Positions 10,040-63,400 of a stretch of DNA of 64,000 nucleotides are shown here, in pieces. The translations under genes were made by a program, and so were the position numbers. The stretch is from Sipunculus nudus. Lineage: Eukaryota; Annelida; Sipuncula; Golfingiida; Sipunculidae. The stretch lies in assembly GCA_026874595.1 (NCBI GenBank), contig CM049318.1, positions 51,364,750 to 51,428,749 of the forward strand, in the 5' to 3' direction. The notes below the pieces were generated by a model. That model was not told the DNA's origin and did no database searches. It saw nothing but the letters and a program-made list of their open reading frames with translations. Within the stretch, counting starts at the first letter, position 1. Each line of letters begins with the position of its first letter.

Positions 10040-11262
10040 AATTTAATTTCATAACTGTAGACATATTTATAAGTTCTGGTAATAATCCGAAAGGCAAACT
10101 GAAGACAACCCGTATATACACTCTGTAAAAGTCTGAAGAATATCTATAATTTCTGCAATTAATGGAAAGGTAAAAAAAAAAATAATAAACTGACGAGAGA
10201 GTCACACACGAAGAGTGTCCGCTTGTATTTTTCTCTCTGCCGGCTCTAAACACAGCCCTTATTTATAACTTTTTCACCCGAAGCCCGGAAACTTCCATAT
10301 TCACGAATATTCCAAACACACAACAATACATGCGTACCAATGGCGCATGAACAGACCCGAAATTTCTAGACTACAACGGGCACTGTGTCTCTACACGCCA
10401 GAGTTCAGCCAGTGCGGTTCCCATAGAAACGCCCAGGGCTTGAGCCTAACAAGAATCAGAACGCCAGGCGCATAATAAACAGATACATGTAACACTATAA
10501 AACAGATATATACATGTAACAATAATGACAAGGCCACATTGCATGAGAAATGTATGAATAATGAGAAGGCCATTAACACAAAATTATCAATGGAGGACAT
10601 ATTGACACACTGGTTTCAGATTGCCAGTCATTGCGAACTAAGTACAGATGTCTTAAAAAATGGGACAGGTTAAATGGAGTGAGAAGGGAGTCAAAATAAA
10701 TGACACTAAAACCAGATTTTGTTACACAGGACTTGACATGTATTTTTACCCTCTGTCCTTATTTATAACTTTTTCACCCGAAGCCCGGAAACTTCCATAT
10801 TCACGAATATTCCAAACACACAACAATACATGCGTACCAATGGCGCATGAACAGACCCGAAATTTCTAGACTACAACGGGCACTGTGTCTCTACACGCCA
10901 GAGTTCAGCCAGTGCGGTTCCCATAGAAACGCCCAGGGCTTGAGCCTAACAAGAATCAGAACGCCAGGCGCATAATAAACAGATACATGTAACACTATAA
11001 AACAGATATATACATGTAACAATAATGACAAGGCCACATTGCATGAGAAATGTATGAATAATGAGAAGGCCATTAACACAAAATTATCAATGGAGGACAT
11101 ATTGACACACTGGTTTCAGATTGCCAGTCATTGCGAACTAAGTACAGGTGTCTTAAAAAAAATGGGACAGGTTAAATGGAGTGAGAAGGGAGTCAAAATA
11201 AATGACACTAAAACCAGATTTTGTTACACAGGACTTGACATGTATTTTTACCCTCTGTCCAT
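10040..11262 (-). repeat. LTR-like sequence with a 500-bp internal tandem duplication
   Basis: 10258-10757 and 10758-11260 are nearly identical copies of a 500-bp unit, offset exactly 500 through 10541/11041 with only a couple of small differences after that. The unit contains TATAAATA on the minus strand (10260-10267, 10760-10767). The flank at 10085-10330 matches the solo-LTR-like insertion at 12839-13699. Read on the minus strand this looks like an LTR promoter region whose upstream (U3) part is duplicated. Termini not resolved. Confidence 0.6.
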
Positions 11263-12340
11263 GGAGGCATAATGTGGGAAAACAAGGCTTTTAATGTACA
11301 TGTTTTATTGATCCATATGCATTTGTATATTTACCCCAAACAAACTCTCTTATAGCCAGATTGATCTTAAAAAAATTATCTACACAGATATTATACAAAC
11401 AGTGAATATAAATCAAGTGACTGTTTTCGGTCATTGTATTTTTTTTGTTATTCCAACTGAACGGAGTTGCTTATAACTTCAGTCTCCCATGTCTGTCCGT
11501 TGTATTTTAATTTTGTATCTCGGTCTGTCTGTTAGTATATTTAAATTAGTACAGATTCAAAAAAGGTGCTTTCAAACTGAAGTTTTATGAAGCAGTTGAG
11601 GAATAATTAAAGTTAAATAATTGTTATCGATTTGAACTGCATACAGACAGGCTGTCTTTATCACATTACATTAGTTAATTTTCTCCTTCCTAGGAGCATA
11701 GGCTGATCATCATATAGACCTGCGAGGCCGTCTGTAATTATGTTTTCTGCTATATTATGTAAAATAAGACGATATCCCGTGCCTCGGTACACGTGAACTT
11801 CTGTGGTCTGAACGTCTGTGCGGTCCTCTATCTGCGACGTCAGAGAACCATACATAAGTAATATAATTTACCGGCAGGTGGCAGTACCTATTGTAGGCGA
11901 GGCAATTTAGCCATTTGAACAGTTCCCCCATCGGAGACAAATAGTATTACTGGCTGCAAATTCTAGTCACCATATCAAAAACAATACATATACTAGTATA
12001 TTAAAGACGGTTTTAATATAAAATTACTAAAAAAACTACGGTTATTCTATGCAGCACATTTCTTTCATAATAGTATCCGTGGAAACCAACAAAGCACATT
12101 AATGTATTCACCAGATGGATGATATTAAAAGCATCACTGGCCACCTGTCTAACCAATTACCCTCGCACTAATCAATTTTGGTCCCTTTCTTTGTCTGTCT
12201 ATTCATCTCTATTACTCAACAATTATTCAATCACAATCCAGGCGTGAGCAAATATTTCCTCAATGAGACGATATGGACCTTCAGTAAGGTCTCAAGCGGC
12301 CGCCTCGATAAATAGCTAAATTTACTTAATAAAAAATATT
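11263..12340. other. Intergenic, no gene recognised
   Basis: Contains a (T/C)-rich stretch with GTCTGTCCGTTG-like words near 11490-11530, typical of repeat termini in this window. Short open frames only. Confidence 0.45.
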
Positions 12341-13807
12341 GTATCCGCCAAGACAAAGCTTTGCGGATACTGTTTTTTTGACCGGGTTCCGCCGCGGCCG
12401 GCGCTTTCGTTTCTGGAGAACTCCTCTGAGACCACTGGACCGATTTTTCAAAACTTGACCCAGTTATCGGGACAAATTTGAACTGGTGCCTAACCATTTT
12501 GCGTTGACCTCTGACCATCTGTGCGTCTGTTAACATATTGAACCACATATCTTCGGACTAGTTCACCGATCAATATGAAATTTTGGCACCAGTGTACCTT
12601 TTGGAAAGATTGTTACCCTGCAATAAACTGGTGGCGTAACCTGCAACCATTTTTGCACAGCGTCCATCTCTTTGTCTGCCTTGGGTTAAAATCGCTCATA
12701 TCTCTTCAGTGGTTGGACTTATTTACCTGAAATGTTGCGTACGTATACATCATAGATAGCTTGTTCGATTTTGTGACAGATGGCACCACCTATATTCCCA
12801 TTTACGCTGCAGACATCCATGCAAATATGCAACACATCTGTTACGGAACCTAATAACAACAGATCACGTAGTCGTGATGAGCATAAATTTTGTAATGGAG
12901 ATAAGAAAAATCAGATTCTGCAACACTAGGCAGCGTGAAATATCTAGGGGAATGAATAAAGAAGTCAGTGTTTTTTTTGTTGACAAATAATTATAATTTA
13001 TTCTTAAAACAATCCTAACATTACAATACACTAAATCAATACAATTACACAATATAACAACAGTATAACAGTAAATCAATACAATTACACAGTATAATAA
13101 ATAAAGCGTACATTACCTGGATACCACCACTGTCACAGCGACAACAAGTCCTTTAAAACGTACAATCCAAATGAACAGTTCACATAAATCTTCTCAGAGA
13201 ATAATAGTTCAATTCAATCACAAAATCTATCTCTTGTAATCCAAAAGGGAAGTTCTTGATACAATCCCGAAAGCAAACTAGAGACAGGCCACACTAAATC
13301 TGCATAGAGTTCGTAGAATCCCTGACACTACTGCAATTATCGGATAGGTCCAAAACTGACTCACACTGTTCCGTGTCCGCTGGAATATTTCTCTCTCCTC
13401 TCTCCTCGCCTCACAGCCCCTATTTATAACTTTTCATCCGAAAATTCTAGAAACTTCTATTCATGAACAATCGAAAAACCCAACAATACATAATACACAC
13501 GCCCAAAGAACATTACAAGACACGCGCTTATAGAGCGCGACCAGCCCAGAAAGTTCCAGATAAGTATGAGCGCTGTGTTTCTACACTCCGGGAGAGTTCA
13601 GCAGGTGCGATTATTTATAGCAGCGCACAGGGTTTGCGCTTGACACGAAACTGAATGCCTACAGACACATGTACCACAATGAAAGAGAGACACCTGTCAG
13701 ACATCTCACTCTATTTCCCCTTGCCATTCGATCCATGCTTCACTTCACCCGTCCTCCTCTAATATCGGCGGATACACGTAGTCGCTTGTCGATTACCCGT
13801 TTTCTAG
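12341..13807 (+). mobile_element. Helitron/Helentron-like element, GTATCC family copy C, interrupted by an LTR-like insertion
   Basis: Left end GTATCCGCCAAGACAAAG then CTTTGCGGATAC (hairpin). Right end GGCGGATACACGTAGTCG, CTTGTCGATTAC, CCCGTTTTCTAG, followed by T. Interior text matches copies at 32.7-33.9 kb (same strand) and 53.4-55.0 kb (opposite strand). Copies of this family have GTATCCGCC/GGCGGATAC subterminal inverted repeats, a 3' hairpin and a CTAG end. 12839-13700 is foreign. No helicase or Rep sequence is present, so it is non-autonomous. Confidence 0.7.
12839..13699 (-). mobile_element. Solo-LTR-like insertion
   Basis: The interruption of copy C starts TGTTACGGAACC and ends ACACCTGTCA(G). 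On the minus strand it therefore runs TGACAGG...GTAACA, with the TG...CA ends of LTRs. ACATC occurs on both sides (12834-12838 and 13701-13705), a likely 5-bp target duplication apart from one extra G. On the minus strand a TATAAATA box (13428-13421) lies about 420 bp before an AATAAA (about 13003-12998), as expected for promoter and polyadenylation signals. No gag or pol is present. Confidence 0.7.
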
Positions 13808-14605: not shown

Positions 14606-15096
14606 TTATGCATCAATTTTCCAACCCTAAAGTAATCACCAAAAAAGGGGGAGCATGGGTGAAAGCGGTTAAGCAGGAGTTGTTTAAAGATTTTTTAGGA
14701 TTACTTATGGGAGTAAATTCAAAATAGACACGTTTTTCAACAAAAGGGCCACCTTATTGGCTGTTTTATGTAAAATGCTCATAAATGATTTAGTTATTTC
14801 CATTATAGTTATCAAGTACTTTTAAGGTAGCGAAAATATGATATGGTATCGGAATCAGTAATTGAGGGGATTGTAGTTTACGTATTTGAAAAGAATTCGT
14901 GACTTTAATACTAAAACGGTAAATTATAAAACCCACAATGTTGCCTAGACTTTATTATTGATATTGTAGTTAAAACTGTAAAACTAAAATTTTGTTAAAT
15001 TTTGAATCCGGTCGGGATAGACTGTAAAATTAATTATTTTTTAGATTGTATTCGAATTTGAAAATCAACTGAAAGTCAGGAAAAAGGTAAGGTTTT
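14606..15096. other. No feature recognised
   Basis: AT-rich sequence without coding potential or clear repeats. Confidence 0.45.
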
Positions 15097-16661
15097 TTTA
15101 GCTCAGCTGACTATGAGTCACCTGAGCCATAGCGACAATCCCTTTTCCTTTGTCCGTCTGGCCGTCCGTCCATTAACAAGGCACGTTTCGATGTACAGTT
15201 AGACCTATATATACGAATACAAAATTCAACATACACTGAGTAGGCTAAGATGTTTCATACCCAAACCAAAACCTGGGTCACTGCGACATTTTTTCTTCGA
15301 GAAATTAAGGAAAACCCTCACTTGTCTTTTAAAAAACCTGTTGTTACACTTCAGCACTGCTTAATATCAAAACCACTGATCTGTTTTAGCTCAGCTGAAT
15401 ATAAAATCATCTTAGGTATATAGTGATGGTCCTATTTCCGTCTGTCGTGCCGTCCGGCCGTCCGTTGACAAGGCACGTTTTGAAACCGTTGCATTTACAA
15501 ATCTAAAATTCTGTACATGCAGTTAGATGTCCTGAAGTTTTCCTACCAAACCGAAAACTGGGTCACTGCGACTTCGTTCCTTCGAGAAATTAAGGGGAAA
15601 CCTCCGTTCTCCAGTAAAAACCTATTGTAACATTTCAAATCTGCCCACCATGAAAACCACTGGTGTTGATGTATTCATGTTTAATATAACCATTCCTGCA
15701 TATATTTCCTATATGCACATGCCATAAATCAGGTCAACATTGCGTAGAAGTGATGGGCTCAAACAAAAAGAACTTTGTCAAAAATTAGGAAATATATTTT
15801 CTCATCTAAAAAGATTATTTTTAAAGCATGAGACTATATTCCCAATTATATAACTTTATTTAATTGAGATTCAATTGTATTCCAGAAATCATATCACAAT
15901 TTTGTAAGTTTTTTAGGTTATAAGCATAATTGTAAAATTAGTACTTGCAATTTGGCCCAAAGTGAGGATCTAACTGAAGATATGTGTCAACTGCTGAACA
16001 TGTCAACAATTTATCAAAGAGCCAACCGGTGATCATGGTTATAGTATAGTTCTTATGTTTATATAAACTGCTCACATGGTTCAATCAGAAAACGCATTGT
16101 AAGATCACAAAATATTATTTTGCAACCATTCCTCACTCATCAATTTAAACCAATCATATCAACCCTGGCCTAAATTATCCCTTCCTCTCAGACTTTTTTT
16201 CTCAAATTGTTATTATTTAAGATTTTTACCTTTAAGGTCAATTTCAGCTGAACACTGCGACCCATGGGTCCAGAAATCATATCACAATTTTGTAAGTTTT
16301 TTAGGTTATAAGCATAATTGTAAAATTAGTACTTGCAATTTGGTCCAAAGTGAGGATCCAATTGAAGATATGTGTCAACTGCTGAACATGTCAACAATTT
16401 ATCAAAGAGCCAACCGGTGATCATGGTTATAGTATAGTTCTTATGTTTATATACTGCTCACATGGTTCAATCAGAAAACGCATTGTAAGATCACAAAATA
16501 TTATTTTGCAACCATTCCTCACTCATCAGTTTAAACCAATCATATCAACCCTGGCCTAAATTATCCCTTCCTCTCAGACTTTTTTTCTCAAATTGTTATT
16601 ATTTAAGATTTTTACCTTTAAGGTCAATTTCAGCTGAACACTGCGACCCATGGGTCCCTTA
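15097..16661 (+). repeat. Satellite-bearing element, AGCTGA family, with 388-bp tandem duplication
   Basis: Left terminus TTTTAGCTCAGCTGACTATG then GAGTCACCTGAGCC and a CCGTC-rich stretch. A second similar left-end unit starts at about 15386. The right terminus is TTTCAGCTGAACACTGCGAC then CCATGGGTCCCTTA. 15882-16269 and 16270-16657 are tandem copies of a 388-bp unit differing at only a handful of bases and one 2-bp indel, so the duplication is recent. Confidence 0.75.
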
Positions 16662-29492: not shown

Positions 29493-32400
29493 ATATTTCT
29501 TGCCCATATATCAAGCAAGCTTCATCTTTGATGAAAATTAACAGGGAAGATGGAGCAATTTACATTGGACACAAGTGATGCAGAGTCTGAGGGCCCAGCA
29601 TCCAGCAACTCCTCGTGGTCCAGCGGCATCGTCGCTAAGATAGAGGACCTCCAGGCAAAGCTTGACACCCTGTACCTCAGACACAGGCAAACCATCAAAA
29701 GGGTGTGTGTCAGTGAGGACATAATAGTCTATTCCAATAGTTTGTATGGAATGTATCACAAGTATGTACAACATTGTTTGCAATCAAGAATGAAAAAAAT
29801 GCCAAATTCAAAATAATCTTGTTTCCATGTTTATAAAAAATTATTATATTTTTCATGTTTAGTAATGATCAAAATTGTTCATATGATAATCCAGTTTCAA
29901 GTAGTTATCGGTAATTAAAAATAATTGATACCAGAAGTGTTTCAGGTTGATCCTGTTTCATATTGATTTTCATGAAAAATAAATTATAGGGATATATCTT
30001 TCTCATTTAGATACCATACTTGAAGAAAAAGTTACATTATCAGATTCAAGACACCCTTGGCCTTTCACTTGATAATTTATATTACCACCTTAAGTACGTA
30101 TCATTCACTATATCAATTTAGATACAGTGTGATTATTAACAGTATCTGTATTGTACTGGTCTTTGTATTGTTAATTACAGCTGTGTCTGATTGTTGCCCT
30201 ACTGGTGTATTTGGTGTACTTTGGTTGGGCGATATACCTGGATCCTGTAAGAGCAAAGCCTTTGATCGTGTTGACGAGTCTGGCTGCTCTGCTGGTCGTA
30301 CTTATTGTTCTGAAGAAACACTGTGGTACGAAGATAAGAAAATCCACCCGAAAAATCTCCCGCCAATTCACACCCAAAATACGGACTGTAGCAAACTGGT
30401 GAGTATCAACAGAACTTTTTTTCCCTTTACCATTCAGTTTACTGATTGGCTTAATAGACCTCTCCAATTACCCTAGTGACACCTGTCTTCAATAATTGAC
30501 ACTGATTGTTCAGGTCAGCTATATCAACAAGAAAGTTCAAATTTGTTATATCTTAGTTGACTTATTAAGTTATAAATTATAGTGATAAACCTAACTTATT
30601 TTTAAGGATCATGTTCCAGCCTGGGTTCCTGGATTATTTGTTAAGTTATTCATATTGTACAGTTGTCATATCTTTGGATGTTTTTATCTCAGCTGACTGA
30701 AAGTCATCTGAGCTATAGCGATCATTCTTTGTCCGTCGTCCGTCTGTCTGTCCGTCTTTTAACCAGGCACAAATCGTAACCACTGGACCTAGAATCTTGG
30801 AACTTGGCATTCTGAGAGGTCCATGAATAATCTCCTTGGAAACCAGAAATTAGGTTTCTGTTACTCATATCCTTCGAACTATGGGGCCCAAAAGAACCCC
30901 CCAGAATAGTAAAAAATTTCATACAAAAACTTCAATATCTCATTAACTACATCACTGATGGTCATGATTTTTGGCATACCTATTGATCATGAGATGTTAC
31001 ATCAGTTTCTGCAGACTGGTGGTGCCACCTGTATTTTTTTATTTTTACGAATTGTTTTCTATATTTTTGAGACCTTAAAAAATGTCAACAGCTGTTAACA
31101 GGGCAAAAATAGTAAAGACTGGACCTTGAAACTTCATTCTTGACACAGTGAGAGACCTATGAAAAGTCTCCATGGAAACCTGAAATAAGGTCTCTGTTAC
31201 CCATATCCTTAGAGCTTCGAAGCTCCCAATTATCCCCCAGAATAATGGAAAATTTGATAAAAACAAACTGCAACATATCAATAACTACAACACTGATGGT
31301 CATGATTTTAGGCATACATATTGATCAAGAGATGTTCCATCAGTTCCTGCAGACTGGTGGCGCCACATGTATTTTTTTCAAATTTTCACAATTTTTTTTT
31401 TTCTCTAATTTTGAGACCTTTAAGGATATCGTTATCTGTCAACAGGGTACAAATCGTAATGACTGGACCTAGAATTTTCATTCTTAACACACAGGGAGAC
31501 CTATGAAAAGTCTCCATGGAAACCTTAAATTAAGTCTCTGTTACCCATATCCTTTGAGCTATGGCACTCCAAAGTACAGCTTAGAATAATGGACAATTTG
31601 ATACAAAAGCTGAAGTATCTGAACAACTAATGCAGAGATCACCATGATTCTTTGTATGGATATTGATTATGGGGTGTTTCATCAGTTTCTGCAGACTGGT
31701 GGCACCACCTATATTTCTTCGGGTTTTTTTTTACGAATTTCTTTCTCTATTTTTCAGACCTTTAAAGATATGAACATCTGTTAACAGGGCACAAATCATA
31801 ACAACTGGACCTAGAATCTTCATTCTTGACACACAGGGAGACCCATGAAAAGTCTCCATGAAAACCTGAAATTAGGTCTCTGTTACCCATATCCTTTAAG
31901 CTGTATGGCCCCAAATTACCCCCCAGAAAAATGGAAAATTTGATACAAAAACTGCAGTATCTCAATAACTACAACACTGATGGTCATAATTTTCGGCATA
32001 CATATTGATCATGAGCTGTTCCATCAGTTTTTGCAGACTGGGTGTGCCACCTCTATTTTTTCAAATTTTTACGAATTTTTTTCTCTATTTTTGAGACCTT
32101 TAAAGATGTGGTTATCTGTCAACAGGGTACAAATCGTAACAACTGGACCTAGAATCTTCATTCTTGTCATGCAAGGAGGCCCATGAAAAGTGTCTGTGGA
32201 AACCTGACATTAGGTCTCTGTTCCCATATCCTTCAAGCTATAGGACTCCGAAGTATCCCTCAGAATAATGGACAATTTGATACAAAAGCTGAAGTATCTG
32301 AACAACTAATGCAGAGATCACCATGATTCTTTGCATGGATATTGATTATGGAGTGTTTCATCTGTTTTTGGAGACTGGTGGTGCCACCTATATTTTATTC

Positions 32401-35400
32401 AATTTATCGAATTTGTGTCTCTATTTTTTAGACCTTTAAGGATGCTGTCATCTGTTAACGTGGCAAAATTGTAACAACTGGACCTAGAATCTTCATTCTT
32501 GTCATGCAAGGAGGCCCATGAAAAGTGTCTGTGGAAACCTGAAATTGATCTCTGTTACCCATATCCTTCAAGCTATAGGACTCTGACATATCCCTCAGAA
32601 TAATGGACAATTTGATACAAAAGCTGAAGTATCTGAACAACTAATGCAGAGATCCCCATGATTCTTTGCATGGATATTGACCATTAAGTGTTTTTATTAG
32701 TTTCTGCAGACTGGTGGAGCCACCTGTATTTCTGTATCCACCAAAAAGTTTTGTGGATACTATGTTTTTCACCGGGTTCCGCCGCCGCCGCATTCGTTTC
32801 CAGAGAACTCCTCTGAGACTATGGACCCATTTTTCCGAAACTTACACCAGTTGTCAGGTCACATGTGAACTGATGCCTAACCAATTTTCGTTGACCTCTG
32901 ACCTTTCCTCTCTGCCCAGCGTCCATTTGTGCGTCTGTTTCCAAACATTAAACCCTCATATCTTGGGAACCATTTGACGGATCAGGAAAAAAAATTTTTA
33001 TACAAATGTAGCCCTTGGATAGCTTTATAACATACACAAAAAATGGTGGCACCGCCTGCAACCATGTTTGCACAGTGTTCATCTGTTCATCTGCCTTGGG
33101 TTAAAATCACTCATATCTCTGCAGTGAATTGACTAATTCACCTGAAATTCGGCATGGGTATACATACTGGATATCTTTCTTGATTCTATGACAGGTGGCA
33201 CCACCTACATTCACGTTCATGCTGATGACATCCAAGCTCATATCTCGGGAACCGTTTGACTGATTGGGCCAAAATGTTGCACGTTTATAGATCTCACAGA
33301 ACTCTTTTTTCATACACAAAACTTGAGGGGCCACCTGCAGCCATTTTTGCACAGCGTCTGTCTGTTTGTCTGCTGTGGGCTAAAATCACTCATTTCTCTG
33401 TAGTGGTTTGACATAACTGCCTAAAATTTTGCAGGTTTATACATCCTGGACAGCTTTCTTGATTTTATGACAGGTGGTGCCACCTTCATTCTAGTTAAAG
33501 CTGCAGACATCGAAGCTCATATCTCAGGAACCATTTAACAGATTGGGCCAAAATTGTGCTTGTGTTTAGATCTCACATAGGTCTTTATCATACACAAAAC
33601 TTGAGGGGCCACCTGCAACCATTTTTGCTCAGCGTCTGTCTGTTCGTCTGCTGTAGGCTAAAATCACTCATATATACATGTAGTGGTTTGACTTTTCTGC
33701 TTAAATTTCGCATATGTATACAACTTGGAAAGCTTTCTGGATTTTTTTTCACAACCTACATACACATTTAGGCTGCAGACATCCATGCTAATATGCAACA
33801 TACCTCGCTTTATTTCCCGTTGCCACTCAATCAATGCCTCACTTCACCCGTTCCACTCAGATTTTGGCGGATACACGTAGTCGCTTGTCGGCTACCCATA
33901 TTCTAGTTTTTAAAGTTTACGCATTTTTTCTCTATTTTTGAGATATATAAATACAGACTCAATCTTGGCCTGTTGGTTAATCTGTTTGATGCTTCAGTTG
34001 AATGGGTATATACTACCATACTGATGATAAAATTTCCTTTTGCGAATCTCTTCCCAGTCAGCTGAGCGTCATGACCCGTGGGTCACTTGTTGGATATACC
34101 ATGATTATTATTGAGGTCCCCCATAATGCCATAAGCATGAGCCTTGGCTTGTTGCAGCATGTTTATTTAGAACATTAATTTTTATTCGTGACTTTTGATA
34201 CCTTCAGTGTATTGTAGATGGTGCTGATTAGCAATTATGGTTTGAAAAAAAGATTTATTAATGTGTTTGATTTTGGCAGTGTGGACTTAAATGTCTTCCA
34301 CATGTGGAGGTGTAGGATTTTTCCCGCAGATAATATAAAACAACACAGGAATTTAAGTTTAAAATCACCAGTTTTTCAAAAAGGTCAGTCCAAAACATAA
34401 ACTGCCAGTCTATTAGTTAAACATGATAATTGGGGAAGCTAGAACAATTGCGGCTACTAAACTTCACCTTATGTCCAGTGGCCCACGTCTGGATCATTCA
34501 AGCACAAGAGAAAAGTTGCATTTTGCACACTGCTGTAGGCCAGCCTACTTTACAGCAGGGGTGGCCTATTAATGGGTCAGTCCAAATATATAGATAGGAG
34601 GGGTGGTAGGTGAAGTGACATCTTACAGAGTTTATTTTGATTCATCAGATTAACACTAGATGGAGCTGATAGGACACTTGAGATATTACAGTAAATAATA
34701 TAAACTGTTAAATATATCACAGCATATTTATATATGTAATAAATGATGACTACTATTAAGATAATGTTCTCCTCCTTGCCTGCAGGCTAATCTACCTGTG
34801 TGTGATGATGTCACTCATAATTTTTATCGCCGTGAAAGTGCAACCCAATCCGAGGCAGCTGGTGGCCCTGGGTGGCATGGCAACCTTCATCACCTTGCTG
34901 TTTGTTATGTCAAAAAATCCCTCCAAAGTAAGTACAGGCAACCTGTCCAGACCAGGTAACCCTTTATAATACACACTAAGTCACTTGAGGCCTGCCCCCA
35001 TTAAAAGTACACAAAAATGTTCAGCTCTTGGATATATAGCTCCTGTCAGTGTGTATAAATGGGATGACCCAGCTACATTTAAAAGAGAATTATTAGAATT
35101 AAAGATGAAATAAAGAAATTAATGGAATAACATTTTAATGACTAATGAAATTTAATTTAAAAAAATGTTTTACATGCTAATTAAGTCTCTTGGATTATGA
35201 AACATCTTTGGTTACATAAAAATCTTTATACTTGCTTATTAAGTTAAGGATGTCTAAAAAAATTGAAATATAATGGTATGGTCTCAGTTTGTTCTGAATG
35301 TAATACATTACAGCGATTTGTCTGTAGACACAGGTGACCTAGGTCCACAAATTTATGTTAGTTGTTAATAACCTCTGTATCAAGCTACTTGTAAAGATTT

Positions 35401-41400: not shown

Positions 41401-44400
41401 TTATGATAATTCCAGACTATTTGAAATATTGCTGTAGATTTAAAAGATGAAAACATGTATGGAAATTTTTGACCAAAAAATTAATTGTATTCTAAATACT
41501 CATCCAGTGTTATAGTTTTTGGTGAAATATTAACATTTTTCAGTGAAATATGTGATTTAAATTAAGTCCATATTGTACCAACGATCTTCACTGAATGATA
41601 TGTTTATTAATAGTTCATCTGTTATCCACCAGGTGGCGTGTGGTCACCTGTTTTTGCCTGTGGCCTATTTGATGGGTGTCGAATGGGAGGACTGCACAGA
41701 AGTGGCCCGTCTTCTTGGGATCAAGTCCTTCACCAATGAGTTTATTGCTTACAAAGAACTCTCCAAGCTCATTAAAAATAGAAAAATGTGCACTGGGCCG
41801 TCCATATCTGTAAGTGAAAAGTATTAAAAAGATGGGATATGCAAGTGGTATGTGTGTCTAAATATGTGGGAAGGAATTTTTTTCAGAACTTTGTTAAAGC
41901 CAGCCTAGCTTTTCTGTAGTATTTATGTGATATCTGGCTTTTAATTAATAAAATGTTGGTTAAATAACTGTAAGGAAAGTTTGTATTATGTGATGGATGT
42001 ATTAGTTTGTTTATCTACAAGTTGTTGGTAAACAAATTACATGTGCCAGTATTGACAAAAAGGAAAACCATGTAAGCCAAGGTGGTGAGTTTTATTTTGC
42101 AGTCTTTTGCATTCTGTATTAATTATTCTTGAAAAATAAATCTATAATATTAAATGAATTCAGTTAAAAAAAATCATAAATTAGGCAGGGTTCTCAGGCA
42201 CCATGTGCGTCAAATTTGACCCTTGGTATCAAAAATTTTGATTATGATTTTCAATAGAAACTTACCAATTTCGAACTCAAGCTACTGGAATATTTCTTTC
42301 AAGAAGATAGAAATAATACAATTTTGACATTTTTATCGAAACCTACAAAAAAGGTTTAAAAAATTTGCCCTGGTGCATTGATTTCTGAAAAACCTGAGAA
42401 CCCAACTTTTTTTGGTCTTTATAATTATAACAGTTGCATCACTTTCTTTATAAGAATTCCCTATGATGTATCATATATTTGAATTTAATTTTAGATACGC
42501 TCTGAGGTCATCTGCACCTATGCGTTGTGTGGCTTTGCCAACCTGAGTTCAATAGGTGTCCAGCTGGGAGGCATTGGTCCAATGGCCCCTAACAGAATGG
42601 GAGACTTGGCCAAGGTTGTCCTCAGAGCCCTTATATGTGGAACTGTCGTCTGCTTTATGAGTGCTTGTGTAGCAGGTAAACAGATATGCATACGACTAAA
42701 CACTATTTGTAATAATAACATTAAAATAATGATAAATATTATTCATATAGCGCCATTTCTCTGGAACTTGCAGCACTACATGTACCTATACCTGCATTCA
42801 GAGCATGGTTTCAAAGAACCCTTCCCCTGGTACCTCTCCCCAAACCCTAACTCTTTCTCATTCACAGACTTCCATGTGACACGTTGATACTTTAAGATTT
42901 TCCCCTCAGCTTACACAAAGGCTGCAAGTTTTATTTTTTTCTTGATGTTCTGATTTTTTAGCTCAGCTGACTGAAAGTCATCTGAGCTATAGCGATCACT
43001 CTTTGTCCGTCGTCCGTCTGTCTGTCTGTCTGTCCTACTGTCCGTCTGTCTGTCCGTTAACCAGGCACAAATCGTAACCACTCTGTAAGTTCTCTGTTAC
43101 TCATAACCTCTGAGCTATGGGGCTCCGAAGTACCCCCCAGAAAAATGGAAAATTTGATACAAAAGCTCAAGTATCTGAACAACTATTGCATTGATCACCA
43201 TGATTCTGTGCATGGATATTGATCATGGAATGTTTCATCAGTTTCTGCAGTCTGGTGGCGCCACCTATATTTTTTTTATTTTTACGAATTTTTTTCTTTA
43301 TTTTTGAGACCTCTTGAGATGTGGTCATCTGTTAACAGGGCACAAATTGTAATGACTGGACCTAGAGTCTTCTCTATTGAAATTCCGGGAGGCCCATGAA
43401 AAGTCTCTTTGGAAACCTGAAATTAAGTCTCTGTTACCCATAACCTCTGAGCTATGGGGCTCCGAAATACCCCCCAGAATAATGGAAAATTTGATTCAAA
43501 AGCTCCAGTATCTGAACAACTATTGCATTGATCACCATGATTTTGTGCATGGATATTGATCATGGAATGTTTCATCAGTTTCTGCAGTCTGGTGGCGCCA
43601 CCTATATTTTTTCGATTTTTACGAATTTTTTTCTTTATTTTTGAGACCTCTTGAGATGTGGTCATCTGTTAACAGGGCACAAATTGTAATGACTGGACCT
43701 AGAATCTTCTCTCTTGACATGCTGAGAGGCCCATGAAAAGTCTCTTTGGAAACCTGAAATAAAGTCTCTGTTACCCATAACCTCTGAGCTATGGGGCTCC
43801 GAAATACCCCCCAGAATAATGGAAAATTTGATTCAAAAGCTCCAGTATCTGAACAACTATTGCATTGATCACCATGATTCTTTGCATGGATATTGATCAT
43901 GGAATGTTTCATCAGTTTCTGCAGTCTGGTGGCGCCACCTATATTTTTTCGATTTTTACGAATTTTTTTCTTTATTTTTGAGACCTCTTGAGATGTGGTC
44001 ATCTGTTAACAGGGCACAAATTGTAATGACTGGACCTAGAATCTTCTCTCTTGAAATTCTGGGAGGCCCATGAAAAGTCTCTTTGGAAACCTGAAATTAA
44101 GTCTCTGTTACCCATAACCTCTGAGCTATGGGGCTCCGAAGTACCCCCCAGAATAATGCAAAATTTAATACAAAAGCTCAAGTATCTGAACAACTTATGC
44201 ATTAATCACCATGATTCTTTGCATGGATATTGATCATGGAGTGTTTCATCAATTTCTGGAGATTGGTGGCGCCATCTATATTTTTTTTATTTTTTACGTT
44301 TTTTTACTCTACTTTTGTGATCTTCAAACATTTGGTCATCTGTAAACAGGGCACAAATCATAATGACTGGACCAAGAATCTTCTGTCCTCACCTCCAGGG

Positions 44401-47400
44401 AAGCCCATAAAAGGTCTACATGGAAACCCGAAATAAGGTCCCTGTTACCCATATTCTGTGAGCTATGGGGCTCTGAAGTACCCCCCAGAATAAAGATTTG
44501 GTCATATATTAACAGGGCACAAATCATAATGACTGGACCTAGAATCTTCTTTCTTGACATGCAGGGAGGCCTTTGAAAAGTCTCTTTGGAAATCTGAAAT
44601 TACCCCCCAGAATAATGCAAAATTTAATACAAAAGCTCAAGTATCCAAAGAACTGATGCATTTTCCCCCATACTTTGCACCGATATTGATCATGGAGTGT
44701 TTCATAAGTTTCTGCAGACTAGTGGCACCACTTGTATTTTTTTGTTATTTTTACATTTTTCACTTTATTTTTTAGACCTTTTAAGAAACATATTATATGG
44801 TCATAATATTTATTCAAAACAACAGCAAAAATAATAAAATCATTTGTTGTTTTTCTTGTTTTGCTACTACCAGGTACACAAGCTCAGTCTTGTAGCTGAC
44901 TTGTTTTATGTTTGGACAGATAATGACAGTTACAGATCGAGTATGCATTTCGTCCCAGTTGACCTACTTTTGATTGTTTTACAGCTCCTAAACATAGAAA
45001 ATTTCATTAAAGACAGAAATTTTTATGGAAAATTCACATGTATGGACTTTTTTTCACAATGCCTGCAGAAACTGGCCTGATTTTTGGTGTGTTGCTTGAT
45101 AATGACCCATTACAGATCAAAATTGCATTTTGCCCTTGTTGACCTACTTTTGACCATATGACCCCTCCTGAACTTAAAAAAATTCACAAAATTTAACAAA
45201 TATTTCTAATTTGCTCCAAGCAATGCATTCGTGTCATTCCGACACATCTAGTTTACAAATTGTTTTCTCTATTTTTGAGACCTTTAAAAATGTGAACATA
45301 TGTTAGCAGGGCACAAATTGTAAAGACAGGACCTAGAATCTTCAGTCTTGACATTCTGAGAGACCTATGAAAAGTCTTCATTGAAACCAGAAATTAGGTC
45401 TCTGTTACCCATTTCCTTTGAGCTATGGGGCCCCAAAGTACCCCCCAGAATAGTGAAAAATTTCATAAAAAAACTTCAATATCTGATTAACTACATCACT
45501 GATGGTCATGATTTTTGGCATACATATTGATCATGAGATGTTTCTTCAGTTTCTGCAGACTGGTGGCGCCACCTGTATTTTTCAAATTTTTACAATTTTT
45601 TTCTTTATTTTTGAGACCTTTAAGGATGTAGTTATCTGTCAACAGGGTTCAAATTGTAAAGACTGGACCTAGAATCTTTATTCTTGACATTCTGAGAGAC
45701 CTATGGAAAGTCTCCATGGAAAACAGAAATTAGGTCTCTGTTACCCATATCCTTTGAGCTATGGCACTCCAAAGTACAGCTCAGAATAATGGAAAATTTG
45801 ATACAAAAGCTGAAGTATCTGAACAACTAATGCAGAGATCACCATAATTGTTTGCATGGATATTGATCATGGAGTGTTTCATCAGTTTCTGCAGCCTTGG
45901 TTAGCCACCTCTATTTTTTTCGATTTTTTATGAATTTTTCTCTATTTTTGAGACCTTTAAAAATGTGGACATCTGTTAACAGGGCACAAATCATTAAGAC
46001 TGGACCTAGAGTCTTCAGTCTTGACATTCTGAGAGGCCTATTAAAAGTCTGCATGAAAACCTGAAATAAGGTCTTATTATCCATATCCTTCGAGCTATGG
46101 GGCCCCAAAGTATACCCCAGAATAGTCAAAAATTTCATACAAAAACTTCAATATCTTATTAACTACATCACTGATGGTCATGATTTTTGGCATACATATT
46201 GATCATGAGATGTTTCATCAGTTACTGCAGACTGGTGGCGCAACCTGTATTTTTCGATTTTTGAATTATTTTTTTTTCTATTTTTGAGACCTTGAAAAAT
46301 TTGGACATCTGTTAACAGGGCACAAATTGTAAAGACTGGACCTAGAATCTTTATTCTTGACCTTCTGAGAGACCTATGGAAAGTCTACATGGAAAACAGA
46401 AATTAGGTCTCTGTTACCCATTTCCTGCAAGCTATGGGGCCCCAAAGTACCCCCCAGAATAGTGAAAAATTTCATACAAAAACTCCAGTATCTCAATAAC
46501 TACAACACTGATGCTCATGATATTTGGCATACATATTAATCATGACATGTTCTATCAGTTTCAGCAGACTGGGTGTGCCACCTCTATTTTTTTTCAAATT
46601 TTAAGAATTATTTTCTCTATTTCTGACACCTTTAAAGATGTGGTTATCTGTCAACAGGGTACAAATTGTAACAACTGGACCTAGAAACTTCATTCTTGTC
46701 ATGCAAGGAGGCCCATGAAAAGAGTCTGTGGAAACCTGAAATTAGGTCTCTGTTACCCATATACTTCAAGCTATAGGACTTCAAAGTATCCCTCGGAATA
46801 ATGGGAAATTTGATACAAAAGCTGAAGTATCTGAACAACTAATCCAGAGACCACCATGCTTCTTTGCATGGATATTGACTATTAAGTGTTTTTATTAGTT
46901 TCTGCAGACTGGTGGAGCCACCTGTATTTTTTTAAAGTCTACGCATTTTTTCTCTGTTTTTGAGATATATTAATACAGACACAATCTCAGCCTGTTGGTT
47001 CATCTGTTTGATGCTTCAGTTGAATGGTTATATACTACCATTCAGATGATAAAATTTCCTTTTGCAAATCTCTTCCCGGTCAGCTGAGCGTCATCACCCA
47101 TGGGTCACTTGTTATTAATTGGACTATGTCAAAAAAAGACTTGGTTTAGGAAAAAGGTGATATATATATATATGTATTGTTTGTTGAATTGGACTGCTTA
47201 AGGGTGATTTAAGGATGTAAAGGATGTGCAAAAATTGCAGTAACGATCAAAATTTATTCCTTGTTAAAATGTTTAAACAACCTTGAAAATTAAATTTAAA
47301 AAAAGTTGTTGGTATGTGTTGGTGCATATTGTTTTGGTTAATTACAATCCAATTATTTGCCAGGCAATATCAACTTTGTCTTAATTTTTCTCAGGGCTAC

Positions 47401-53376: not shown

Positions 53377-54892
53377 CTAGAATACGGGTAGTCGACAAGC
53401 GACTACTTGTATCCGCCTAAATCAGAGTGGAACGGGTGAAGTGTTGCATATTAGCATGGATATTTTATCCCATGGCAGACAAACAGATGGGAGCTGTGCA
53501 AACATGGCTGCAGGTGGCGCCACCAGTTTTGCGTATGATAAAGAGCTATGTGAGATTTATACACATGCAAAATTTTGGCCCAATCGGTCAAACGGTTTCC
53601 TCGATATGAGCTTGGATGTCGCAGCGTAAACTTGATTGTAGGTGGCGCCACCTGTCATAAAATCAGAAAAGCTATCCAGGATGTATAAGCATGCCAAATT
53701 TCAGGTGAATTAGTCAAACCACTGCAGAAATATGAGTGATTTTAACCCAAGGCAGACGAACAGATGGACACTGTGCAAACATGGTTGCAGGTGGTGCCAC
53801 CATTTTCGGTGTATGTTATAAAGCTCTCCAAGGGCTACATTTGTGCAAAAAAATTTTCCTGATCGGTCAAACGGTTCCTGAGATATGAGCTTAGATGTCT
53901 GCAGCGTAAACGTGAATGTAGGTGGCGCCACCTGTCATAAAATCAGAAAAGCTATCCAGGATGTATACGCATGCTAAATTTCAGGTGAATAAGTCAAGTC
54001 ACTGCAGAGATATGAGTGATTTTAACCCAAGGCAGACAAACAGATGGACACTGTGCAAACATGGTTGCAGGTAGCGCCACCATTTTTGGTGTATGTTATA
54101 AAGCTCTCCAAGGGCTACATTTGTGCAAAAGAATTTTCCTGATCGGTCTAACGGTTCCTGAGATATGACTTTTGATGTCTGCAGCGTAAACGTGAATGTA
54201 GGTGGCGCCACCTGTCATAAAATCAGAAAAGCTATCCAGGATGTATACGCATGCCCAATTTCAGGTGAATTAGTCAAGTCACTGCAGAGATATGAGTGAT
54301 TTTAACCCAAGGCAGACGAACAGATGGACACTGTGCAAACATGGTTGCAGGTGGCGCCACCATTTTTGGTGTATGTTATAAAGCTGTCCAAGGGCTACAT
54401 TTGTGCAAAAGAATTTTCCTGATCGGTCAAACGGTTCCCGAGATATGAGCTTGGATGTCTGCAGCGTAAACGTGAATGTAGGTGGCGCCACCTGTCATAA
54501 AATCAGAAAAGCTATCCAGGATGTTTACGCATGCCCAATTTCAGGTGAATTAGTCAAGTCACTGCAGAGATATGAGTGATTTAAACCCAAGGCAGACGAA
54601 CAGATGGACACTGTGCAAACATGGTTGCAGGTGGCGCCACCATTTTTGGTGTATGTAATAAAGCTCTCCGAGGGCTACATTTGTGCAAAAAAATTTTCCT
54701 GATCGGTCAAACGGTTCCCGAGATATGTGGGTTTATGTGTGGAAACAGACGCACAAACGGACGCAGAGCGCAAAGGAAAGGTCAGAGGTCAAAACAAAAT
54801 CGGGGCGCAGCAGTTCACATGTGACCCGAACATAATCCCGGGTTTCGGAAAATTCCGCCCAGCGGTTACGGAGGAGTTCTCCGGACACCTAC

Positions 54893-54953
<61 letters not shown>

Positions 54954-54998
54954 CCAGCTGAAAACATAGTATCCGCAAAACTCTGTTTTGGCGGATAC
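53377..54998 (-). mobile_element. Helitron/Helentron-like element, GTATCC family copy B, with 280-bp array
   Basis: On the minus strand it starts GTATCCGCCAAAACAGAG and TTTTGCGGATAC, and ends TTGTCGACTACCCGTATTCT then AG, followed by T. The hairpin GTAGTCG-ACAAG-CGACTAC is perfect. Interior units repeat at exactly 280 bp (GGTGGCGCCACCTGTCATAA at 53641, 53921, 54201, 54481), each with a second GGTGGCGCCACC about 150 bp on. The minus-strand open frames in it are array by-products. Confidence 0.8.
54894..54952. repeat. (CGG)n trinucleotide expansion
   Basis: About 19 uninterrupted CGG units at the place where the paralogous elements at 32.8 kb and 12.4 kb have only about three CCG units (GCCGCCGCCGC) or a short CCGCCGCGGCCGG. 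Confidence 0.95.
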
Positions 54999-56010
54999 AA
55001 TTATCCATCCAGCATACATTCCTTGCACCACAAATGATTAAACAGACAAAAAGATTTCTGGCAAATGTAAATGATATAAACTGACATTGTAACAGTGAAA
55101 TTCTGAAGGTACATTAACATTTACTATGCATAATATCTCAAGCTTTTAGTTTGCTTCAGCTGAATATAATACGGGAATTTCCCAGCAAAACCATCATAGC
55201 ACACAGATTAGTCCCCAATCCACCTGAGCTATAGTGATCACCCTTTTTCCATCATCTGTATGAAGCTCAGCAGTAAGTTCAGCTAAAAAGTACAACCAAA
55301 CTCTTATGAGACCCACTGAAATAGTCTTGTTCCTGTAACCTGACAATTGCATACCCCTGAACATTTGACATGTCATTTGATCAAATTGGTTTCTGTTGGG
55401 CTGTGAAAGGAAATATATGTCACAATAGGAAAATATTTATGAACAAAAATTGCACACAGGGTAACTTTTGCATATAATGGCAAAGTACCTGAGGCAGAAC
55501 AAGATGTCTTCATGCAAAATATAACATACTGATGTTTGTCATACATAAAAGGTAATTAAATTCATCAGTCTCTAATAAAATTGCATATGTTTTGCATATA
55601 TTAACATTCATAACCCATCTGATGTGCTTACCCCTAGTGGCAAAGGGTCAAGAATACCATTGTATAACCAGTATTATAAAAGGTAATCCTTTATATAGGG
55701 TCTACTCATTCCCCCTAAGAAAAATTCATTCCTATAAATACATATATAAACTTAATGTATAGCCAATATATGTGGACGAACTGAACATACTGGAACTGAC
55801 ATAGAACATACTGGACTTACCTGTACCTATAGTGACTGTTTCATCTACTCATGTCAGCAGGTTTAATCACCCTGCAGGAAAGCTACAAGACTGATTTAAT
55901 CAGACTTAATATTATAAAGCCCTGTCATATATTGAGTCTGATATCCATACTGTGAGAGATTCTACAATATAAGCCACAGTATAAGATCTGTTGCATCTTA
56001 ATTCTTTGAC
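54999..56010. other. No gene recognised
   Basis: 55172-55260 holds a fragment of the CCCAGCAAAACCATC repeat and an AGCTATAGTGATCACC word like the AGCTGA-family terminus. Otherwise AT-rich and featureless. Confidence 0.4.
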
Positions 56011-59102: not shown

Positions 59103-60400
59103 TTATTTATATCTGTATCCTCTTGCTTCATGATGATGATGCTGATGATGATAATAATGACTACCAGATGTATCACTTCCACTCCTTTCTCTATAACCAG
59201 TACCCCTTGATCTGTTATTAGACACAGGCAAGTAGCCCCCACGGTTAGTATAAAATGAAGCTTGTCCATCACTTTGAGAGCGTTGATACCGGTCAAACTG
59301 AGACTCCGCCCTCTGAAGTGTTTTTGTGTCACTCACACTTCTCTGATAATAGTCTGTGTCATGGTAGCCCCGCCCCCTTTGTCTGGGGCTGCGTCCCCTA
59401 GTCCTACCCCTCCCATAATCATTATAACCCCGTCCTCTATTAACTTGATATCCTTGAGAAAATTTCTGATTATCAGGTAAACTAATTCTCCGATAACTCT
59501 CTTTTTGTTCTGAAGAAGTCCTTGTTTCTTGACTATAATGAGAATGGTGCCTCATGGGGGGCCTCTGGTATGGATGGTGAAATCTTGGTGCATTGAAAGA
59601 CATTCCACCATTTTGTTCTGTCACAGGACTTGCATGTAATGGCTGACAGCTTTGAGTAGCACTGCTGCAAGAACTGGTTTCATCTGGTCCAATGGTGAAG
59701 TGCACTTTGTCTGGATTGCAATCCTGGTCAGACTGAAAAACTCCTGGTTGATCCACAGGAAACAGTTTATGTTTGGCCTCATTCCATTGTTTTTCGTCTG
59801 ATTCATCAGTCAGAGTCATCTGAGAATCAAAGTCACCAAAAGACAGCTCTGATTGGCCAGCAGGTTGTATCTCCTGCTGTGATTGGCTGATATGTTTATT
59901 TGGGTTTCTCTGTGTTTCACTTGAAGCTGGCAGTGATTTATGGTCTTGAACAGACATTCGTCTGTCTGTATGAGCTTTTCCACCTGTCACTGGGGCTGAC
60001 AGGTTACGATTCCTTTGGGAAGATTGAAGTTTAACTGTGGAGATGTCTGATTGGTTGAGACTATGTAAAACAGGCTGTGATTGGCTGGGGAAGATACCAG
60101 GACTTCTGGATGGTGTGCTTGGTGTGGACGGTGAGCGTGGAGCATACTTCAGCTGGTAACTTGTAGAGTCACTGGTACTTGGTGAAGGGGTCGCAGACTG
60201 CCCGCTGCTCCACGGACTTCCACTGGACCACATCTGGGCATGAGAGGGGGATCTTGTGGCTGGGTCATTGTGGTTTGGGGACGGATTCTTGGAAGGACTG
60301 CCACTGGAAGGAAGCAGACTCCCATTTGATGGCAGAGGAGGCCACTGTTGAAGCTGGGAAGGCGAGCTCTGCTTACTGACTGCCTCAGCCCATGCTCCTC
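59103..60400 (-). CDS. Terminal exon of YEATS-like/RG-rich gene
   Basis: The acceptor TATACTTTAG at 60402-60401 completes a Gly codon and opens GGAWAEAVSKQ. 431 residues follow, then TAA at 59105-59103. The N-terminal half is Ser/Pro/Gln-rich with Ser-Pro sites that are potential proline-directed kinase targets. The C-terminal half is Arg/Gly/Tyr-rich and ends SHYYHHQHHHHEARGYRYK. Five to six His codons at 59122-59160 are encoded by a CAT/CAC-type run. Confidence 0.88.
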
Positions 60401-63400
60401 CTAAAGTATAAATTATCATCATGGTTTGGCTGTGTTTCTTAGCATGTAAACTGTAAGAAATACATTTCTGACAAGCCAATCATATATTCAACATTTTACA
60501 TTCATGTTTGGTGAGGTGTAAAAATATAATTCAATGAAATACAGAATTAATCTATGATACAAAATCATAGCTTTGATGAAAGAAATAAAATTCTAAAACA
60601 ATAATTTGTTATAAACAATTAGGGGTTGCTAGCTAGCAGCATATCTGTCAATCGGACACGAGTCTAGGAGACATCAGTGGCAGCACATTAGCCACAAGCC
60701 ATGTTGAAACTGTGATGAAAATCTAGATGAGAAAACAATTTTATTTCACTTTTAGGACACACTGACTTCAAGTATTATGACCAAAATGGCAAACTATTAA
60801 ATGTGTTTATTTTCTAACAACACCCAACATGTGTGAAAGAAATTTTGTTACAGCTCAACAACATGATAAATCTTCCTTCTTGTTTGTTGAATTTCTGACT
60901 AATTACATGAGTGCCTTCCACAGGTTATGTGACTGACATGCATTGTTTGAGGATTAGGAAATTATGGCAGTCACCATAGAGATGATATTTACATCATCTA
61001 AATTTGTCCATTCACAGGATTTCTTTTGTATGATATCATCATTCACAGTCACTAAAGATTACCACTATGTACGTATACATTTACATCTTTGCTACAGGAT
61101 GGATGGGCATTGCAGTGCAGTTTTCAGTATGACTGCCATCAGGACTAAAAGTTTGGGCAATTCAGTCAAATTAAGAGACCAACTGAGTCATGTATTAGGC
61201 TCCAGCTGGGATGAGACACTACTGATAAGGAGTGTGGTGTGTCAAACAGAAATCAGAACAGGAAAATTACAAAAATTTAGCCTACCTGCTTTGATGTCCA
61301 GAGGGGTTATAGCATTTTCCAATTTTTTCATGCTCCACACCCCCTGCAGCAATGGACTGCTCTGACTGTGAATCAGTGGTTTGTTTGGCACTGGGGCAGG
61401 GGACCGTTCCACTTCTGGTGGAGGGGGTGTCACAACTCTTTTCAGTGTAATCTCTACAGTTTTCTGACTGACAGCACCTTTATCAGCAGGGTCTAGGTTA
61501 TGGCTAAATTTGATGCTTTTAGGTTTCTTCACCTTGTCCTGTGACGGAACATTAGAATCTTAATATTAATTATTAACTCCTGGTGGAAGAACTTGTTTGA
61601 AAAAAATAATAATATACACAATTAATGCTTTTAAGAACATCATTATAAATCACTTAAATTTTACAGTTAATAAAGATAACAAACAGAAAACTAAACTTTG
61701 TAAAACTAGTGTAATGAGTTTGATCAAAACAAAGTAATACAAACAAGAAATATTAAAAAAAAAATGAAACAAAAGAATACCTAGAGTAAATATGGTCTAA
61801 TTAAAAATATTAACATGACTTATGTCAGCATGTTAAATACAAAATACAACTCTGATAGTTAAATATATGAAGGTGACACCAATTAATATGACATATTTTC
61901 GGGACAAATGTATACATATTTAATGTGATATCAATATACGTGATATAATTGAAATTACAGTGATTAAAAGTCTGCTCTATTGTATAGTTTTTGGAAACAA
62001 ATCAATGAAATGAGATTTTAAAGAATTTTAATTTTTCAAACATAAATTTTCTTACCTCAAATGTGACAATACAGTCTACGACCATGCCATCTATCATACC
62101 CACAGCCCACTTATCCATCACAAATGGAGGCTGCAAAAGGAGAATACAGCTGTCAGATAAAATTAAGGGCATAATAATATGAATATATATATTTCTTACA
62201 ACAAGCTTTTTAACATTGATTAAGCCAAACTAGATGTGGCTGGACAATGGTCCTCAGAGGGCCCCGCGTTTCTGCTAGTGCTTGACTAGTTTACATATGG
62301 GTAAAAATTAAGTTAAATTTGAAAAATATGACAAAAAGAAACAGGTTTTTTTTCCATATGCATATGGGAAGAATTCCTACTGGATTAAATGATATTAAAG
62401 AAGCTATGTCTGAAATAATGTGTGCAATAGAAAATCACCGAATGTAGTCTGTTAGCCATATTTGATTTTGAGCAAGTCTGTAATTCAATAGGTCTGGAGC
62501 CCTTATAAGTACCAATCATCCCTGTGATTGGAAAGGTGCAGTTGGTTGTTGTTGAGTTATCGCACACAAAAGAAAATCAGTGAATGGGCTGTGGTGGCCA
62601 TATTAGAATTCTGACAGGTCTGTAATTCAATAAGTCTGGAGCCCTTATAGGTACCAATCATCACTGTGAATTTGGTAAAAGCTGCAGTAGGTTGTTGCTG
62701 AGTTATCGCACGTGAAAGAAAATCAGCGATCGGGCTTTGGTGGCCATATTGGAATTCTGACAGGTCTGTAATTCAATAGGTCTGGAGCCCTCATAGGCAC
62801 CAACCATCCCTTATGCTCCTGAGGCAGGGGAAATCTTGCGCTTCTAAAGAAGCAACTGATTTTCACAGCTGGAATAATTCTAAATGATTTGTTTTATAAA
62901 CTTTAATAAAATTAAATAAAATTTGACACTATTTTCTTAAGCCCTTAAAAATATTTCTTTTAAAAGGAGTGTAATTCATCTAATAATAGTGATTTATCTG
63001 AAGTTTTTTTTCACATTTGAAACCTGATGTACTGTTTCCCATGCAATATTACAGTCATCAATTCCTTATAACCTTTTGTCCTCTGAAATGTGTAAATAAT
63101 CTAATGATCTCAACATTATGTTCATGATTACATGTTACGAGGACCTTTTGATATACCTGTGTAATCCTGAAGGTGTCGCTGGCCCAGCGTTTACACAGGA
63201 ACGTGACGTGTTTGATACAGGTTAACACGCTGTCTCCATCCTCCTCATCATCATCATCAGCCTCCATGTACATCTTCCATTTGTGTTCCTGTTAAAACAG
63301 ATTGACACAAAAGATTGATTAATTAATTAGCTTTTAATGCACTAATGTGAGCGAACATTTTGAAACCCAGTCTCATAGCCCTACCATGAGGGTAAGGTCT

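Follow-up and report, generated by a model that had tools for sequence, protein, structure and literature searches.

In the window considered here (the whole analysed stretch of 64,000 nucleotides of the Sipunculus nudus genome), two large repeats at 30.7-34.1 and 43.0-47.1 kb differ by one element, present in the first copy and missing from the second. This locus raises the question of what kind of element was inserted, and whether the two copies represent a recent insertion and its pre-integration site. A sequence-only reading had considered the repeats collinear and the element a Helitron/Helentron insertion. The alignment bore out the collinearity: the joined flanks of copy 1 match copy 2 across the junction at 93%, and the letters reported for the two junctions, GTATTTC/TGTATCC...CTAG/TTTTTAAAG in copy 1 and GTA, seven Ts and AAAG in copy 2, are both present in the window. 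The features discussed below are listed in Table 1.

Table 1. Positions in the window of the inner and outer Helentron-associated non-autonomous elements (HINEs) and of their parts.
Feature	Position	Strand	Remarks
Inner HINE, nested in carrier copy 1	32732..33906	+	1,175 bp by the family consensus TT...CTAG; first T is C here
5' subterminal inverted repeat GTATCCACC and complementary repeat, forming the 5' hairpin of the inner HINE	32734..32760	+	DNA fold -7.0 kcal/mol, z -4.6
CCG microsatellite of the inner HINE, short	32780..32792	+	
Central tandem repeats of the inner HINE	33055..33745	+	period 279, 2.5 copies
3' subterminal repeat GGCGGATAC of the inner HINE	33866..33874	+	reverse complement of the family's 5' GTATCCGCC
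3' palindrome of the inner HINE, GTAGTCG-CTTGT-CGGCTAC	33877..33895	+	one G.T pair here; many solo copies perfect
3' terminus CTAG of the inner HINE	33903..33906	+	
Solo inner-family HINE	12339..13807	+	flanks AAATA/.../TTTCACAT
Solo inner-family HINE	53377..55000	-	(GCG)20; 4.5 tandem units of 280 bp; flanks GGATAA/.../TTCATAAT
Outer HINE, carrier copy 1, filled	30681..34091	+	5' hairpin end TTTTTATCTCAGCTGACTGAAAGTCATCTGAGC; GTCC/GTCT microsatellite; ~340-bp tandem units; 3' end GTCAGCTGAGC..GACCCGTGGGTCACTTGTT
Outer HINE, carrier copy 2, without inner element	42955..47113	+	
Empty site in carrier copy 2: run of 7 T	46927..46933	+	

The boundaries of the inner family were fixed by the two solo copies of the window, and correspond to TTGTATCC on the left and CTAG on the right. 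At the 5' end, GTATCC[GA]CC pairs with G[CT]GGATAC shortly 3' of it; in the solo form, the hairpin folds as DNA at -10.9 kcal/mol (z -8; 0 of 200 shuffles equal), and it embeds, as in HINEs, a 5' subterminal inverted repeat (subTIR), GTATCCGCC, placed 2 nt from the TT start. A CCG run, which reaches 20 trinucleotide units in the longer solo copy, is followed in order by tandem units of about 280 bp, GGCGGATAC, the palindrome GTAGTCG-CTTGT-CGACTAC and CTAG. Measured from the last base of CTAG, GGCGGATAC occupies 33-41 nt and the palindrome 12-30 nt, and both fall within the ranges that characterize the 3' side of HINEs (subTIR at 20-60 nt, then palindrome at 8-35 nt). For the 3' end in its solo form, a fold of -7.3 kcal/mol is obtained, equalled by 4 of 200 shuffles, and the combination of CTRR and a hairpin is shared with Helitron1. 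No open reading frame of at least 150 aa is found in the inner element, so that, as in HINEs, a microsatellite and tandem repeats occur without a long frame. By its anatomy, the inner element is a Helentron-associated non-autonomous element, without being a canonical Helitron; the proposed Helentron-type rolling-circle integration thus stands, and the canonical Helitron is excluded by the 5' TT, the 5' hairpin and the asymmetric inverted repeats. Genome-wide, one pattern for the 3' end motif of the family gave 4,453 matches against 0 in the control, and a looser pattern 11,122 against 1, an abundance far beyond chance.

The carrier is a HINE of another family, which follows the same plan as the inner one with unrelated letters: a AGCTCAGCTGACTGAAAGTCATCTGAGCT hairpin, a GTCC/GTCT microsatellite, units of about 340 bp, GTCAGCTGA, the palindrome TGACCC..GGGTCA and CTTG. 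Further 5' ends of the outer type, TTTTTAGCTCAGCTGACT, are found in the window at 15095 (+), 53034 (-) and 1292 (-).

Concerning the ends of the inner element, the TC start that had been read in the window is a private feature of that copy. The left junction in other intact nests (carriers harboring the inner element) is GTATTTTTGTA[TC]CC, i.e., GTATTTTTGTATCC or GTATTTTTGTACCC; L003, L005, L060 and L063 each depart from it by a single change, and the left end is lost in L006, L007 and L061. The family therefore starts with TT, one T having changed to C in the window copy; the CTAG end is the same in the other copies, as had been proposed. The refuting condition set in the sequence-only reading, ends other than TC/CTAG, thus applies to TC but not to CTAG. 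The flanking Ts suggested for scoring were found in the 26 solo copies that retain both ends (two from the window, the other 24 taken from a list that a 3' pattern had defined): CTAG is followed by TT in 25 and by TC in one, and the base before TTGTATCC is A in 24, T in one and G in one. Genome-wide, the base preceding TTGTATCCGCCAAAAC is A in 6,207 of 8,214 places (control 0) and another base in 2,007 (control 1); since 53 of the 100 listed non-A places are left junctions of nests, the share of A among non-nest copies should be, by extrapolation, nearer 87%. The usual target of the inner family is thus A^TT, and the carrier site, T^T, is an exception; insertion between Ts holds for this site but not as a family rule.

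The equation of the seven Ts of copy 2 with two plus five Ts around the element turned out not to be diagnostic. Among 62 listed empty carriers on contig C1, T runs of 7 (21 carriers), 8 (25), 9 (10) and other lengths (6) occur and, with a TT start, the commonest run fits 3 + 5 = 8; each length carries an uncertainty of one or two bases. The absence of target duplication is supported by the genuine empty site of the carrier and by six solo insertions (L009, L013, L024, L032, L036 and L047) having paralogous uninterrupted sites among the sequences retrieved, with a best identity of 85-97% each. If the element is taken as TT...CTAG, each of the six targets is A^T, neither duplicated nor lost, an assignment with an inherent ambiguity in that TT might equally be placed at the right end of the solo element. 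The T-rich or TT target without target-site duplication thus holds for the six solo insertions (A^T) and the carrier site (T^T). For L044, the partial empty-site matches (70-84%) are too divergent to be judged. The solo inner HINE of L047 lies within an array of 63-bp repeats, where dozens of uninterrupted copies of the target exist at about 91-97% identity.

The empty site of copy 2 is thus genuine; the event it records, on the other hand, is not specific to this locus. In the 1.43-Gb assembly, the right junction of the nest has 2,284 matches (reversed control 0), the left junction 1,598 (control 3) and the uninterrupted carrier site 681 (control 0). Given that the insertion is common to about two thousand carriers, copy 1 and copy 2 represent two carrier subfamilies rather than a fresh event and its pre-integration site. 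On contig C1, 52 of 100 listed right junctions are paired with a listed left junction within 5 kb, and the inner part is exactly 1,173 bp long in 25 of these 52 nests. By comparison, the lengths of solo elements on the same contig, where 49 of 75 listed 3' ends could be paired with one of 100 listed 5' ends, are scattered (mean 1,529, sd 477), no length occurring more than twice.

The share of paired junctions depends on the letters of the right junction, being 41 of 49 for the TTTTAAAAG class and 7 of 46 for the TTTTTAAAG class. Six loci of the latter, which sample the 48 right junctions without a listed left partner, were fetched; the same left junction is present in five of them (L061 lacks the left part), with GTAC replacing GTAT in four and another change in one. 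The scarcity of partners in the TTTTTAAAG class is accordingly explained by the left-junction pattern, which missed these variants. Within the 1,173-bp class, six nests differ from one another by 2.0% on average (1.1-3.2%); for five nests of the other class the figure is 10.8% (2-24%, a rough value given arrays of unequal length), and the two classes differ from each other by 18%. The insertion therefore appears old and common to many carriers, and not private to the window locus.

How the same insertion came to be shared by so many carriers can be explained in more than one way. In our opinion, it is highly probable that the inner HINE was inserted once and that the whole nest was then amplified through the outer ends, past the inner terminator. 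The recurrent, independent insertion of the inner HINE into one hot spot of many carriers would agree with its preference for T-rich sites, with the existence of more than one nest subfamily and with the failure of the trees described below to recover one clade; nevertheless, the equal inner length of nearly half of the paired nests against the scattered solo lengths, the identical recurrence of the left T count and of the junctions, and the derived palindrome letters common to the nests make it improbable. In the tree of inner 3' ends, built on 116 columns from 19 nested and 32 solo rows, the nests are not recovered as one clade, the fewest label changes being two, but one clade is not rejected (AU p 0.41); here, the solo rows from outside the window come from a list of near-perfect palindromes and the palindrome lies within the 110 bases used, a bias that favours separation. 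The carrier tree, built on the 3' regions of 20 filled and 12 empty carriers, likewise has two as the fewest changes and does not reject one clade (AU p 0.44). Both trees are short, with low support throughout, and agree with one founding insertion without proving it.

The mobility of the nests can be read at their outer ends. The outer 5' end is readable in three nests only (the window copy, L004 and L008), whereas all 19 nests with a readable outer 3' end, a set that leaves out L005, in which the carrier sequence breaks off 33 bases past the junction, show 19 different flanks directly after CACTTGT[TA]. On this basis, it is the outer ends that most likely moved the nests. Unequal exchange readily occurs in tandem arrays, which might speak in favour of a spread of the nest by segmental duplication or satellite-like expansion instead of transposition; the 19 different sequences found directly past the outer terminus argue against it and leave it very unlikely. 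Just as little probability is attached to the idea that the empty carriers are excision products of filled ones: their site is indeed uninterrupted, mostly with 7-9 Ts, but 8 of the 12 sampled empty carriers cluster apart from the filled ones (with weak support, 80/80), and we know of no clean excision of rolling-circle elements. Lastly, a canonical Helitron (Helitron1) with 5' TC and 3' CTRR inserted at the window locus would account for the CTAG end with a palindrome close to it, the absence of target duplication and the A^T target of most solo copies, but is scarcely credible in view of the TT of the other copies, of the roughly 2,000 occurrences of the nest junction, and of the 5' hairpin and asymmetric inverted repeats, which Helitron1 lacks according to the available text of PMC3627910.

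According to the single founding insertion followed by amplification of the nest, a non-autonomous Helentron-type HINE, TTGTATCCGCC...CTAG, would have entered a single time, without duplicating its target, the run of Ts where the tandem array of an unrelated HINE, AGCTCAGCTGACT...GACCCATGGGTCACTTG, ends on the right. The outer element would have been still mobile, and the nest would have been copied as one unit to about two thousand places, giving at least two subfamilies. The Rep/helicase of the outer family's Helentron would probably start at the outer 5' end, replicate through the entire inner element, its 3' palindrome and CTAG included, and terminate solely on reaching the outer palindrome with its CTTG. 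The terminator of the inner element would be either not recognised by, or leaky for, the machinery of the outer family. The nest copies do hold a complete foreign 3' end and yet continue to the outer one. The carrier ends fold more weakly than the inner ones (5' end -5.0 kcal/mol, 12 of 200 shuffles equal; outer 3' palindrome as DNA -3.9 kcal/mol, 71 of 200 shuffles equal) and, the outer palindrome being no better than shuffles, folding gives no reason for a stop there rather than at the inner one.

The state of the inner palindrome was compared by eye in the 31 of 100 listed 3' ends that showed letters. A perfect stem is present in none of six nests, which were assigned by coordinate, and in 14 of 25 other rows (Fisher p 0.02). 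The 25 may include nests whose junctions have changed, and the counts are not independent, as the nests belong to a single lineage. The palindrome stem is missing from the fold of two nested forms, is still formed by the window copy, and is kept perfect in one nest, L007. The imperfect palindromes of the nests may reflect the decay of a useless part, or may help read-through; it is also possible that the successful nested subfamilies are those with a decayed inner palindrome and that the loss of the inner terminator helped them. A broader and rather tentative idea, to which we give somewhat less than even credit, is that the terminators of Helentron families are orthogonal, so that a complete foreign HINE could be carried along by about two thousand HINEs and even upstream of the frame of an autonomous Helentron, and that nesting is a general route to a second satellite-type array. 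To our knowledge, the stopping point of rolling-circle transposons and the specificity of its signal are poorly understood. The present nest, whose inner and outer ends can both be read and which occurs about two thousand times beside hundreds of empty carriers, represents a natural test of terminator recognition.

An autonomous relative with Rep/helicase, for which a search by the ends of the inner element had been suggested, was found with the 3' end of the outer family instead. The search of the genome with the Pfam profile PF14214 gave 143 matches (150 of 195 candidates scored). One locus (G000:C17:35622692-35636000; L089, L091, L094), the presumed autonomous Helentron, harbors an open frame of 2,342 aa with Helitron_like_N, PIF1, DUF6570 and Herpes_teg_N (the latter taken by us for an OTU-like protease), and, at its C-terminus, with a sub-threshold Exo_endo_phos match. 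These domains correspond to the Helentron arrangement, with Rep, PIF1 helicase and a putative endonuclease. About 1 kb downstream of the frame lies the 3' end of the outer family, GTCAGCTGAGCATCATGACCCATGGGTCACTTGTT. A query across that end matches six other copies at 93-99% identity, all of which stop between its positions 413 and 420; many short elements share roughly the last 90-155 bases, mostly with the same stop, a few continuing to 422-435. The matched 3' end is thus a true terminus, and it is on this end that the assignment of the locus as presumed autonomous partner of the outer family rests; it also provides an autonomous candidate for one satellite-carrying HINE family.

Upstream of the same frame, a full inner-family HINE is present, with the borders TTA/TTGTATCC and CTAG/TTATAGG. 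Five further copies match the passenger query on both sides of the array and into the unrelated sequence on the left, and a sixth matches its right part only; judging from the match coordinates, the array of the passenger is longer in other copies than in the C17 locus. The sharing of this HINE among further copies indicates that the presumed autonomous element of the outer family carries the inner family as a passenger as well. No inner-family ends belonging to an autonomous element were found in the fetched parts of eight Helitron-like loci out of the 143 matches (L083-L085, L086 with L092, L087, L088, L089 with L091, and L090 with L093; several in part), the search having covered 4.3-7.5 kb downstream of the Rep domain in L087 and L088.

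In the available text of PMC7492417, the Cg_HINEs of the Pacific oyster share with both the inner and the outer HINEs the 5' subTIR with a complementary inverted repeat, the microsatellite, the satellite-type tandem repeats, the 3' subTIR and palindrome, the absence of target-site duplication, the T-rich sites and the empty sites inside other repeats; their GTCY/GTCC microsatellites recall those of the outer family. Elements with two arrays exist there too and are attributed, in the same text, to recombination, junction capture or filler DNA, whereas the two arrays described here derive from the insertion of one complete HINE into another, in which the inner ends and the empty site can still be read; the nest thus lets one see directly a way in which HINEs come to have two tandem arrays. 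The Cg_HINEs, moreover, are described in that text as not linkable to an autonomous element.

As regards the HINE/DINE-1 elements and Helentrons, in the portions of PMC4067079 at hand, the positions of the subTIRs, the 3' palindrome, the Rep/PIF1/endonuclease partner and the paralogous empty sites are alike, and the inner family differs by its mostly A^TT target and its CTAG end; in these respects it resembles the proto-Helentron of Phytophthora infestans (5' TT, 3' CTAG, A^T) depicted in the same source. Helitron2, in the part of PMC3627910 available, similarly has a 5' hairpin involving the 5' ATIR and a 3' ATIR upstream of the 3' hairpin, with a TTTT^T/C target in contrast to the mostly A^TT one of the inner family.

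Nested or composite Helitrons are already known in principle. Structures of this type inserted within other elements are mentioned in general terms in the excerpt of PMC12628747, and the composite FoHelis of Fusarium oxysporum are alike in being nested, composite rolling-circle elements; the accessible part of PMC5148889 reports one nested FoHeli case and proposes that chimeras stop at the first (inner) 3' end, unlike the about two thousand copies reported here, which pass over the inner 3' end and reach the outer one. An account of a HINE-in-HINE nest amplified in thousands was not found in the portions of PMC4067079, PMC5148889, PMC7492417, PMC3627910 and PMC12628747 available to us.

Some minor features of the window can be added. 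A 12-bp palindrome, GGTGGCGCCACC, occurs with up to two mismatches at 28 places from 12630 to 54641 (0.51 expected), mostly in the 280-bp and 337-bp arrays, whose units do not otherwise align; in the carrier, one copy stops 7 bases short of the insertion point. The two units at first seemed homologous (alignment 40 versus a maximum of 28 in 200 shuffles), but this was lost after masking the shared palindrome without credit: the 98 masked pairs have a mean of 19.8 versus 17.9 for the reverse-complement control, and 30 of 60 shuffles scored as high as the one masked unit tested. The two open reading frames of at least 150 aa in the window were considered as possible transposases and rejected, neither having a Pfam match; one of them, of 458 aa, lies at 59103-60479 (-). 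Finally, two direct duplications are present at 10257-11260 and 15881-16657, consisting of two 504-bp copies 99% identical and two copies of about 390 bp 98% identical, respectively.
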